Shown here: positions 7,114 through 13,179 of the stretch, one piece after another
How positions within the stretch are numbered: position 1 is the stretch's first letter
Layout: each line of letters opens with the position of its first letter
Source: Aliiroseovarius sp. S1339
Lineage (GTDB): Bacteria > Pseudomonadota > Alphaproteobacteria > Rhodobacterales > Rhodobacteraceae
DNA length: 64,000 bases
Reading direction: 5' to 3'
NCBI RefSeq assembly: GCF_023195695.1
Contig: NZ_JALPQG010000001.1
Span: 62,001 to 126,000, forward strand
Program-made: the position numbers and the translations under genes
The notes under the pieces: generated by a model
The model's input: the letters and a program-made list of their open reading frames with translations, nothing else
The model's database searches: none
Told to the model about the DNA's origin: nothing

Positions 7114-7554
7114 ATGAGCGACGGCGACCTGATCAAGCTCTATTCAAAACAAATTCTCGCCTTGGCAGCCGCGATTCCCCATCTTGGCGAGCTGGATGCA
7201 CCCGATGGCGAGGCGAAAGCACGCTCCCCCCTCTGCGGGTCGACCGTCTCGGTTGGCGTGACGCTTGACAACGGCGTAGTCGCAAATTTTGCGCAAAACG
7301 TAAAAGCCTGCGCGCTGGGTCAGGCCTCGGCAGCCATTCTGGGCAAGATCGTCAAAGGTCTTGATCGCGACACGCTTCAGCGCGGCCGCGATCAGTTGCA
7401 TAAAATGCTGGCCGAACAGGAGGCCGTCCCCACCGCACCGTTTGAGGGATACGAGGTGCTTCAGCCGGCGCGCGATTTCAAAAACCGCCATGCCTCGATC
7501 CTGTTGCCGTTCGATGCATCGCTCGCCGCGATTGATGACGCGCAGAGCGACTGA
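7114..7554 (+). CDS. NifU N-terminal-like iron-sulfur cluster assembly scaffold
   Basis: The 146-residue protein resembles the IscU/NifU N-terminal fold. It shows [10 protein letters not shown] and [17 protein letters not shown], the positions of two of the conserved cluster-binding cysteines; a third family cysteine, usually near the C-terminal end, is not evident, so scaffold activity is inferred and may be degenerate. I chose the ATG at 7114 because a G-rich AAAGGTGGG precedes it; an in-frame ATG at 7096 would add six residues. It is a single gene that ends near a terminator for the opposite strand. Genes of this type are common in Rhodobacterales as stand-alone short IscU-like proteins. 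Confidence 0.8.
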
Positions 7555-7559
7555 CCCAT

Positions 7560-7595
7560 AAAAAAACCGCCGCTCTCCTGGCAGGGAGGCGGCGG
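7560..7595 (-). terminator. Strong terminator reading leftward
   Basis: Read on the minus strand, CCGCCGC and GCGGCGG arms (7589-7595 and 7567-7573), with further partial pairing inside, are followed by seven Ts (7566-7560). It ends the transcript of the small membrane protein gene at 7747-7869 after about 150 untranslated bases. On the plus strand the T run is missing. Confidence 0.8.
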
Positions 7596-7746
7596 CAAGT
7601 TGCGGCTCGGGATTTCCGGATCCGGTGAAGGAATGAGGCAAAACACCGGACTTGGACAGGCGACGGGCAGTGATCCGTCTGGACGCATCGAAGTTGGGAC
7701 ATGATGCAGTGTCCGGACCCTGAGCAGGCAGAAACTGGGTTTGGGG

Positions 7747-7869
7747 TCAGATCACCCCCGGCAGATGCAGCGCACCGAAAAGCACAACCAACAGAGATGT
7801 TCCCCCGATTGCGTCCTGCCATAAGGTAGCGGACGAACGGGTCAATACGGCTTTCACGTCTTTCAACAT
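7747..7869 (-). CDS. 40-residue single-span membrane protein, possibly SOS-regulated
   Basis: I do not recognise a named family. The reading frame gives 40 residues: a basic, amphipathic N-terminal half (MLKDVKAVLTRSSATLWQD) and a hydrophobic C-terminal segment (AIGGTSLLVVLFGALHLPGV) long enough to cross the membrane once. The start is well supported: AGGAGAG sits seven bases before the ATG. I recall similar short proteins from other Rhodobacterales, but cannot check this here. The upstream 80-130 bases hold five GAAC repeats, two of them spaced as GAAC-N7-GAAC, the LexA operator form of alphaproteobacteria. Damage-induced one-span peptides of similar size are known elsewhere, for instance the division inhibitor SidA of Caulobacter; a comparable role here is inference only. 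A strong terminator lies about 150 bases downstream. Confidence 0.6.
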   Translation of the reverse strand: MLKDVKAVLTRSSATLWQDAIGGTSLLVVLFGALHLPGVI

Positions 7870-7948
7870 GGTCACTCTCCTGCTCTCTGTCTTGGTGGCG
7901 CCTTCGTGGTCGCTTTCACCTTTGTTGCTACTTTGTTCGCATATAAAA

Positions 7949-7997
7949 GAACCGCTTGTAAAGAACTTTTTAAGAACATTTGTGAACAAACGAGAAC
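7949..7997 (-). promoter_or_regulatory. GAAC repeat cluster containing a LexA-type box
   Basis: GAAC occurs in direct orientation at 7949-7952, 7963-7966, 7974-7977, 7984-7987 and 7994-7997. The second and third are separated by exactly seven bases, matching the GAAC-N7-GAAC (GTTC-N7-GTTC) operator known for alphaproteobacterial LexA. The other spacings are 10, 6 and 6. The cluster lies between the end of recG and the start of the 40-residue protein gene, so it would control that gene. No clear -35/-10 pair was found. Confidence 0.5.
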
Positions 7998-8004
7998 AAA
8001 GACG

Positions 8005-10095
8005 CTAACCAACTGAAATCAAACGGATCGCTTCATCCTGCCGCATGAGCCAAAGCAGCACGCGGGCGGCGTGGCCGCGCGGCGTGGTCAGGTCCGGGTC
8101 TTGCTGCAGCAACAGGCGGGCATCTTTTTGCGCCACTGCCATCAGACCTGCCTGATGTTCCAGATCGCCAACCCAAAAGCGTGGAAGGCCCGATTGTGCC
8201 GTGCCCAATACGTCGCCTGCCCCGCGCATTGCCAAATCCGCTTCGGAAATCACGAACCCGTCTTCTGTGTCGCGCATCACCGCCAGCCGTTTCTCGCCGC
8301 CTTCGGTCAGCGGCGGCTGATACATCAAAAGACAGGTCGACGCCGCCTGCCCGCGCCCCACCCGTCCGCGCAACTGGTGCAATTGCGCCAGCCCGAAATG
8401 CTCGGCTCGTTCGATCACCATGATCGAGGCATTGGGCACGTCGACTCCGACTTCGATTACCGTTGTCGCGACCAACAGCTTGGTTTTGCCCGCCACAAAA
8501 TCTGCCATGGCAGCGTCTTTCTCGGCAGGTGGCATCTGACCATGGACCATGCCGACCACGCCTTCACCCAACGCAGCGCGCAGGTGTTTGAACCGTTCTT
8601 CTGCGGCGGTCAGTTCCATCACCTCGCTTTCCTCGACCAGCGGGCAGACCCAATAGGCCTGCGCGCCGTCGGCAATCACACCACGCAGCCGTTCGACCAC
8701 CTCGTCGATCCGCCCGGAGGACACCAGCACAGTTTTGATCGGTTTGCGCCCCGGTGGTTTTTCATCCAGCACCGACACATCCATGTCGCCATATTGCGCC
8801 AGTGCTAAACTGCGCGGGATCGGCGTGGCGGTCATCACCAATACGTCTGCGGCCTGCCCCTTGGCACCCAATTCCATTCGTTGGGAGACACCAAACCGGT
8901 GCTGTTCATCTACAATGGCCAGACGAAGATCATGAAATTCAACGTCTTTTTGAAACACGGCATGGGTGCCGACAAGGATGTGAATGTCACCTTTCGCCAA
9001 CGCTTCCAACTTGGCGCGCCGCTCGGCCCCCTTATCGCGCCCGGTCAGGATATCGACCACAACACCTGCGGCTTCCGCCAAGGGACGCAGGCCTTGCAAA
9101 TGTTGTCGCGCCAGAATTTCAGTGGGGGCCATCATGACGCCCTGCCCGCCAGCCTCGACCGCGACCAGCAGCGACAGCAGCGCGACCAAAGTCTTTCCCG
9201 ACCCCACATCGCCCTGCAACAGCCGGTTCATTCGCTTGCCCGAAGCAAGATCGGCGGCGATCTCGTCAACCGCACGGGTCTGGGCGCTGGTTGGCGCATA
9301 GGGAAGTGCGGCCAGAACCTTGGCCTGTAAGTCGCCTGTGCCCACGCTGACCCGCCCCTTGCCACGTCGCACCTTGGCGCGTGCTAAGGCCAGCGTCAGT
9401 TGGTGGGCGAAGAACTCGTCATAGGCCAGACGCCTGCGCGCGGGCGATTGCGGCGACAAGTCATCCGCGCCTTCCGGGCCATGCGCCGCCATGAGCGCCT
9501 TGTTCCAATCGGGCCAGTGTTCACGTGATTTCAGCTCTGGGTCGATCCATTCTTTCAAGATGGGCAGACGGGTCAGAACCTCGCCCACACCCTTGGTGAT
9601 CACGCGCCCGGTTACCCCCGCAGTCAGGCGATATACAGGCTCATAATCAGGGATACTGGCGGCGTCATTTGGTTTCACGATGTAATCGGGATGCACGATC
9701 TGCAACTTCCTGTCGAAACTTTCCACTTTGCCGGAAATCACGCGCTTTTCGCCTTCGGGCAGTTGTTTGCCAAGCCACGGGCCGTTTGCGTGAAAAAATA
9801 CGAGTTCAAACGCGGTCAGGTCGTCGCGCACCTCAATCCGATAAGGCGCTGACTTCGTGCGACCCGGCCTGTGTTGCACCACCTCAATTTCGACCGTCGC
9901 CATCTCGCCGGGCAAAACTTCGGTGATTGAGACGCGGAATTTGCGGTCAATCCCCGCATGGGGCAACCAGAACAGAAGATCACGTGGAAGCTCTATCCCC
10001 AATGTTCCCAAGGCCTTGGCGGTCTTTTCGCCAATCCCGCCGAGGGTTTCCAGATCGGCAAACAAGGGAAACAGGATTTCGGGACGGGTTGCCAT
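8005..10095 (-). CDS. recG: ATP-dependent DNA helicase RecG
   Basis: RecG is a double-stranded DNA translocase that remodels stalled forks and recombination intermediates. The 696-residue protein has the N-terminal wedge (OB) domain, then Walker A in RLLQGDVGSGKTLVALL, motif Ia MMAPTEILARQHL, the DEQH box in IVDEQHRFGV, motif III VMTATPIPRSLAL, and the C-terminal helicase lobe with QLRGRVGRG and the TRG-type segment GFVISEADLAMRGAGDVLGTAQSG. Length is normal. The start lies three bases from the end of ligA on the same strand, so the two are probably co-transcribed. A LexA-type box lies just past its stop, but it points at the next small gene and not at recG. Confidence 0.96.
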   Translation of the reverse strand: MATRPEILFPLFADLETLGGIGEKTAKALGTLGIELPRDLLFWLPHAGIDRKFRVSITEVLPGEMATVEIEVVQHRPGRTKSAPYRIEVRDDLTAFELVFFHANGPWLGKQLPEGEKRVISGKVESFDRKLQIVHPDYIVKPNDAASIPDYEPVYRLTAGVTGRVITKGVGEVLTRLPILKEWIDPELKSREHWPDWNKALMAAHGPEGADDLSPQSPARRRLAYDEFFAHQLTLALARAKVRRGKGRVSVGTGDLQAKVLAALPYAPTSAQTRAVDEIAADLASGKRMNRLLQGDVGSGKTLVALLSLLVAVEAGGQGVMMAPTEILARQHLQGLRPLAEAAGVVVDILTGRDKGAERRAKLEALAKGDIHILVGTHAVFQKDVEFHDLRLAIVDEQHRFGVSQRMELGAKGQAADVLVMTATPIPRSLALAQYGDMDVSVLDEKPPGRKPIKTVLVSSGRIDEVVERLRGVIADGAQAYWVCPLVEESEVMELTAAEERFKHLRAALGEGVVGMVHGQMPPAEKDAAMADFVAGKTKLLVATTVIEVGVDVPNASIMVIERAEHFGLAQLHQLRGRVGRGQAASTCLLMYQPPLTEGGEKRLAVMRDTEDGFVISEADLAMRGAGDVLGTAQSGLPRFWVGDLEHQAGLMAVAQKDARLLLQQDPDLTTPRGHAARVLLWLMRQDEAIRLISVG

Positions 10096-10098
10096 AGC

Positions 10099-13179
<3,081 letters not shown>

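Follow-up and report, generated by a model that had tools for sequence, protein, structure and literature searches.

The locus behind recG

The window analysed here is a stretch of 64,000 nucleotides from Aliiroseovarius sp. S1339, in which a 40-codon open reading frame (ORF) follows recG on the minus strand after a gap of 135 bp. As the preliminary description of this DNA had stated, recG and the ORF upstream of it are read on the same strand as the small gene, and both end before it. The features of the locus, with coordinates counted within the window, are the following.

7560-7746, minus strand: 3' region of 187 bases, apparently structured, with an intrinsic terminator at its end
about 7567-7596, minus strand: terminator hairpin, with a T run at 7560-7566
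7747-7869, minus strand: 40-codon ORF encoding a predicted single-span membrane protein, stop codon within the coordinates
7877-7881, minus strand: Shine-Dalgarno sequence AGGAG upstream of the small ORF
7924-7938, plus strand: second LexA-type box, GTTG-N7-GTTC on the plus strand and GAAC-N7-CAAC on the gene strand, covering the presumed start region
7957-7962, minus strand: -35-like hexamer TTTACA (TTTACA or TTGAC in most loci)
7963-7977, minus strand: main LexA-type box, GTTC-N7-GTTC on the gene strand
7984-7987, minus strand: third GTTC half-site, 10 bp further upstream
7994-7997, minus strand: fourth GTTC half-site, another 10 bp upstream and less conserved
8005-10095, minus strand: recG, the upstream neighbour of the small gene
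10099-12600, minus strand: ORF upstream of recG, putatively ligA, a name that stems from the first reading of the sequence

A short single-span protein under coding selection

The ORF at 7747-7869 translates as MLKDVKAVLTRSSATLWQDAIGGTSLLVVLFGALHLPGVI. Its ribosome site had been rated highly beforehand, which the AGGAG at 7877-7881 bears out, and in a comparative set of 88 loci, which omits L073 and L078 (the same genes as L020 and L022), 83 have GGAG, GAGG or AGGA 3-18 nt before the ATG. The frame evolves under coding selection, with a pooled pN/pS of 0.17 across 12 within-genus pairs (pS 0.355, pN 0.060).

The membrane span noticed in the window copy is a constant feature of the protein, since all 88 members have one hydrophobic span with a 17-residue Kyte-Doolittle maximum of at least 1.6, located at about residues 20-36 in most of them. 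From residue 21 to the end, 86 of the 88 contain no K, R, D or E, and a charged amphipathic span of the TisB type is not present. Among 56 members L34 never varies, and D19, G22, L26 and P37 each reach a conservation of 90% or more. The N-terminal segment is probably cytoplasmic, which would place the short LHLPG end at the outer face. The basic amphipathic segment that the preliminary description saw ahead of the span is weakly borne out: in the window copy residues 1-19 carry a net charge of +1 and the hydrophobic moment is 0.39, but the net charge of this segment is 0 in 45 of the 88 members.

Searches of family collections gave nothing credible. No PDB chain matches the small protein, PHROGs returned one matched member at E 0.2, and the scattered matches in NCBIfam (six, best E 0.005) and Pfam (four, best E 0.024) each involved one or two of 56 members.

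Distribution in the Rhodobacteraceae

In a first search of 41 genomes the protein was found in 23, namely in all 21 Aliiroseovarius genomes (one copy being cut by a contig end) and in two of four other Rhodobacteraceae genomes, and in none of the 16 genomes of other families. A profile built from 20 sequences then matched in 323 of 394 Rhodobacteraceae genomes, which represent about one genome per genus; together with the pN/pS ratio, this establishes the conservation of a frame that had been proposed from a single sequence. Among these, 68 loci were inspected, which were the stronger profile matches (E 8.6e-12 or better), and every one of them holds an ATG-initiated ORF of 39-42 aa behind recG, on the same strand and 95-305 bp away.

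Of the 71 genomes without a profile match, 20 listed genomes, G069 excepted, and six others (G186, G194, G203, G231, G269 and G337) were followed up. Thirteen of the 20 have an ORF that is diverged but built in the same way. Ten of these came to light via the promoter pattern, with recG upstream in nine of the ten loci and no recG within the 1.5 kb of the remaining one (L157); in G051, G073 and G084 the small ORF was found through recG, behind which it lies. G186, G194 and G337 also carry a small ORF. In G044, G053, G090, G203 and G231 the first 400 bp or so behind recG showed no such ORF, and recG was not found in the profile-negative genomes G050, G065 and G095. Most Rhodobacteraceae appear to keep the small gene directly behind recG.

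A class-wide sample of 385 genomes gave ten matches to the profile. The five strong ones are all from Rhodobacteraceae, and the five weaker ones (E 0.001-0.008) were taken as chance, four being parts of longer frames (330-547 aa) and the fifth falling in a frame of 45 aa; there was no credible match outside Rhodobacteraceae among the matches listed. Phage sequences yielded no match to the small protein, and a plasmid collection yielded one record, a 1.58 Mb replicon of Pseudorhodobacter turbinis (E 0.02, 45% identity). The small protein is real and widespread in the Rhodobacteraceae, and it is without a family name.

Anatomy of the operator

All five of the GAAC repeats that had been described upstream of the gene were located, at 7949, 7963, 7974, 7984 and 7994 of the plus strand, and they read GTTC on the gene strand. 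The pair at 7963 and 7974 has the N7 spacing of the form GAAC-N7-GAAC, the steps from 7974 to 7984 and from 7984 to 7994 have N6, and the first pair is separated by N10. Taken alone, GAAC-N7-GAAC is not significant in the window (three found vs 2.25 expected by chance), and the case for an operator therefore rests on conservation.

The N7 pair is indeed kept in relatives, as the main box GTTC-N7-GTTCTT anchors 87 of the 88 loci, the exception being L104 with N6 spacing. In 82 of 87 loci the third GTTC is placed exactly 10 bp farther from the gene; L023, which is cut by a contig end, was dropped from the upstream counts. On the downstream side TTTACA or TTGAC adjoins the array in most loci, and the spacer from this -35-like hexamer to GAACA is 17 bp in 66, 18 bp in 19 and 16 bp in two of 87 loci.

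The second, opposed box goes beyond the preliminary description, as do the spread of the gene through the family and the apparent structure of its 3' region. As the partner half-site of this box, 11 bp on, 81 of 87 loci have CAAC, three TAAC, two GAAC and one AAAC, and the box is a perfect GAAC-N7-GAAC in L111, L136, L153, L158, L159, L180 and L186. Within 110 bp of the start, 12 of 104 loci have some GAAC-N7-GAAC and 91 have the one-off form, whereas L187 has neither. The locus L180 reads TTGACG-N6-GAAC-N7-GAAC with a terminal TAGAAC, which is the layout of lexA promoters, and L186 has the perfect second box without the upstream array. Such turnover of boxes with the LexA pattern kept would be expected if LexA reads these sites. 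The N7 spacer of the main box, TNAAAAA, is also conserved at about 0.8-1.8 bits per column, which is unexplained by LexA alone. In four loci (L072, L100, L117 and L130) one more perfect GAAC-N7-GAAC lies past the common second box, on the side of the start codon.

The Caulobacter LexA consensus is given in the available text of PMC13384398 as (T/A)TGTTC-N6-TGTTC. Compared with it, the main box lacks the T before the second GTTC, and the second box matches save for one base.

Similarity to the recA, lexA and uvrA sites

In 14 genomes at least one intact GTTC/GAAC-N7 pair was found in 41 of 42 recA, lexA and uvrA promoters, the exception being uvrA of G024 (L148). Two overlapping N7 pairs occur in 11 of the 14 lexA promoters, and that of G023 has an N7/N6 triple. 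A LexA matrix was made from 42 distinct recA/lexA/uvrA sites, with the sites of the small gene not among them. Applied to both strands of the window, it places 7961-7979 at rank 1 with 20.1 bits, second place reaching 12.5, while the training sites score 15.5-27.3 bits; since the training sites had been selected by the pattern itself, such a score depends largely on its eight fixed bases. The second box (7922-7940) has rank 6 with 8.3 bits.

A locus was taken to pass if the 150 bp upstream of the small gene contained a site scoring no lower than the weakest training site. By this threshold 101 of 104 scored loci pass, among them ten that the operator pattern itself had brought in and that are for this reason disregarded in what follows. 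Among loci found without the operator, 86 of 88 found by the protein and five of six found by recG pass, whereas not one of 831 control stretches taken from these loci does; the failures are L089 (just under the threshold), L104 (N6 spacing) and L187. The SOS-type control first suggested from the window is supported by this comparison, both by the first rank of the main box and by its recurrence across loci. Judged from these sites, the small gene carries an operator like those of recA, lexA and uvrA of the same organisms, as a member of the regulon would, and its control by LexA is highly probable.

The array of three half-sites has 19 matches in the 14 genomes, 13 of which lie at the small-gene locus (in 13 of the 14 genomes), one at lexA of G023 and five elsewhere; a reversed control pattern has 14. 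Upstream of recA (e.g., in L031) a second conserved, degenerate GTTC element (GTTCTTATTTTGTGCTC) faces the GAAC-N7-GAAC box, a convergent layout that resembles that of the small gene. For Dinoroseobacter shibae, LexA sites have been predicted at lexA, recA, dprA and others, and recG is absent from the main text of that report as far as its available portion extends (PMC6473078).

The same array could be read by a regulator other than LexA, such as an OmpR-type activator that would bind the GTTC repeats with their 10/11-bp period and respond to a different stress. The position and the period of the array are typical of direct-repeat activators as well, and its spacer is conserved beyond GTTC. 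Candidates of this kind do not fit, however, as far as the available excerpts of the literature give their motifs: the published CenR motif is TGA-N8-TGA, and those published for ChvI of Caulobacter and Sinorhizobium are TTGC-N3-GCAA and GCC-N8-GCC. The sequence of the main box also admits a CtrA-type reading, TTAA-N7-TTTA, but CtrA was discarded, since some loci, among them L018 and L020, have lost TTAA and retained GTTC. Against another regulator also stand the match to the recA, lexA and uvrA sites, the perfect second box of some lineages and the arrangement in L180, which resembles that of lexA.

The distribution of LexA itself bears on the same question. Its DNA-binding domain was detected in 373 of the 394 family genomes. 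Among 20 listed genomes in which it was not detected, 12, mostly fragmented assemblies, carry the small gene (nine by profile and three by inspection), and in two of the 20, G158 and G269, lexA is cut by contig ends. The case that favours another regulator is G186, a genome rated 100% complete in 3 contigs, which keeps the gene and the operator although the DNA-binding domain of LexA was not detected in it, an S24-peptidase protein of about 149 residues being all that was found. Directly upstream of this S24-peptidase, UmuD-like gene there is a GTTC-N7-GTTC box (L207, about 1390-1415), which counts in turn against another regulator. In G186 either LexA has diverged or was missed, or another protein uses these sites. 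Weighed together, these points make a regulator other than LexA improbable for the small gene.

In the lexA genes of G049 (L202) and G085 (L201), which represent two genera, the frame appears to be broken at nearly the same N-terminal place (RDG/PPSFDEM), and one base is missing at a C run in L202; these breaks may reflect assembly error, a true frameshift or slippage.

Promoter and read-through

A sigma-70 consensus scan of 7400-8100 found no promoter. For 7555-8005 on the minus strand, the terminator scan reported nothing between recG and the small gene, and read-through from recG, with constitutive expression, is therefore possible; the scan returned two terminator-like sites vs 1.2 by chance, which is a weak count. 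Transcription from recG may extend across the small gene and end where that of the small gene ends.

A conserved 3' region

In the window the 3' region folds with -68.9 kcal/mol, which corresponds to a z of -3.86 with the terminator and -1.57 without it. For the family, RNA counts refer to the 86 of 88 loci with a recognised terminator, L123 and L124 being left out, and 20 of these 86 sequences come from one genus. The 3' regions are 128-247 bases long and, without the terminator, have a mean z of -1.8, with 36 of the 86 below -2.

Short motifs recur in these regions well above shuffled sequences. CUGCC occurs in 86/86 (2.28 copies vs 0.47 in shuffles), UGUCCC in 81/86 (1.56 vs 0.15) and CUGUCC in 79/86 (1.51 vs 0.13). 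Furthermore, stems of at least 6 bp surround the UGUCCC loop in 51 of 81 cases (control 27%), with 58 distinct stems, and the UGCCU loop in 59 of 84 (control 27%), with 78 distinct stems. ACTGCC has no stem excess (5/38 vs a control of 16%), and RNAalifold on 16 sequences gives 4 of 26 pairs with both sides changed. The persistence of the loops while the stems change suggests a functional RNA, and the region looks like a conserved structured RNA, as judged from its sequence and predicted folding.

No Rfam family matches the 3' region above threshold, and there were two sub-threshold matches. One of them, ar7/EcpR1 (RF02342), reaches 17.7 bits (E 0.66) against a gathering score of 60 bits, and its place between divK-pleD and rpmG is not shared by the recG-linked region; this identity was rejected for the RNA. 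The available text of PMC4414408 locates EcpR1 behind divK-pleD. In the available text of Weinberg 2010 (PMC2864571), recG appears in a reference only.

The 3' region raises the question of whether the RNA might be the main product, made in the SOS response and binding mRNAs or a protein through its CUGCC and UGUCCC motifs, with the peptide as a secondary product. The enrichment of both motifs over shuffles and the stem excess around the UGUCCC and UGCCU loops, formed by many distinct stems, speak for such an RNA. The clear coding selection on the peptide speaks against it, as do the moderately unusual folding once the terminator is removed (z -1.57 for the window copy), the ACTGCC motif without stem excess and the small number of doubly changed pairs, and we consider an RNA as main product very improbable. 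That one LexA-repressed transcript might yield both a division-holding peptide and a structured 3' RNA acting on mRNAs or on a protein is a more probable combination, though still a doubtful one.

A candidate SOS effector of the inner membrane

We propose that the small gene has a promoter of its own, located between recG and the ORF, which LexA would repress from two places. One would be the GTTC-N6-GTTC-N7-GTTC array, immediately 5' of the -35-like hexamer, and the other the opposed GAAC-N7-(C/G)AAC box over the presumed start region. Upon DNA damage RecA would trigger the cleavage of LexA and the promoter would be freed, and the transcript would give rise to an inner-membrane protein of about 40 residues with one span. 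Like SidA in Caulobacter, this peptide could contact the late divisome (FtsW/FtsI/FtsN) within the membrane and so hold division for as long as repair has not brought the signal down. Binding of LexA, induction, topology and the division target are all predictions of this scheme. The scheme as a whole, a LexA-repressed inner-membrane SOS effector that is most plausibly a SidA-like division inhibitor, is put forward tentatively. Given LexA control, division inhibition is the somewhat favoured role, an assignment by analogy that follows from the likeness to SidA, YneA and SosA.

The role of the peptide could also be a different one under the same control. TisB of Escherichia coli is a LexA-controlled short membrane peptide with a charged amphipathic span, and a peptide of this kind would lower the proton motive force and slow growth without acting on the divisome. 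The LexA-type operator, the very short protein with its one span and the several half-sites, which suggest tight repression, would all suit such a peptide. However, the stretch from residue 21 onwards is uncharged in nearly all members, the conserved D19, G22, L26, L34 and P37 suggest a specific contact, and wide spread with fixed synteny is unusual for a toxin. A TisB-like action is the main rival in function but is unlikely on this evidence, and the division inhibitor is the reading that we carry forward.

In the literature that was searched, with most subscription journals outside the search, the small gene and its 3' RNA are unnamed, no SOS division inhibitor is named for Rhodobacteraceae, and no damage checkpoint of peptide plus RNA is described for this family. 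The locus represents a known functional kind with a new protein family and an unexpected conserved 3' region. Rhodobacteraceae are a large family that includes laboratory models, and the gene is a direct and strong candidate for a factor by which these bacteria may pause their cells, and perhaps their division, during DNA repair. The conserved 3' region raises a second question on the same transcript; if true, a peptide and an RNA on one transcript would constitute a damage checkpoint that joins both.

Comparison with known systems

Several SOS-associated membrane peptides invite comparison. The Rhodobacteraceae protein differs from TisB in its uncharged span (86 of 88 members) and in its widespread, syntenic gene, and no antisense antitoxin came to notice. 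YneA and SosA are larger than the 40-residue protein. They belong to other phyla, and the comparison with them is by description: excerpts of the literature present YneA of Bacillus subtilis and SosA of Staphylococcus aureus as SOS-induced division inhibitors with a single span.

Two Caulobacter crescentus proteins are closer in kind, as described in the available text of PMC4211646. DidA is a damage-induced division inhibitor of 71 aa with a single span and is independent of the SOS response, unlike the Rhodobacteraceae gene with its LexA-type boxes. SidA is a LexA-controlled inner-membrane protein of 29 aa that acts on FtsW. The protein described here is like SidA in being a very short single-span protein (39-42 aa) with LexA-type boxes upstream, and unlike it in its 40 residues, its place behind recG and its occurrence, as found here, in Rhodobacteraceae only.
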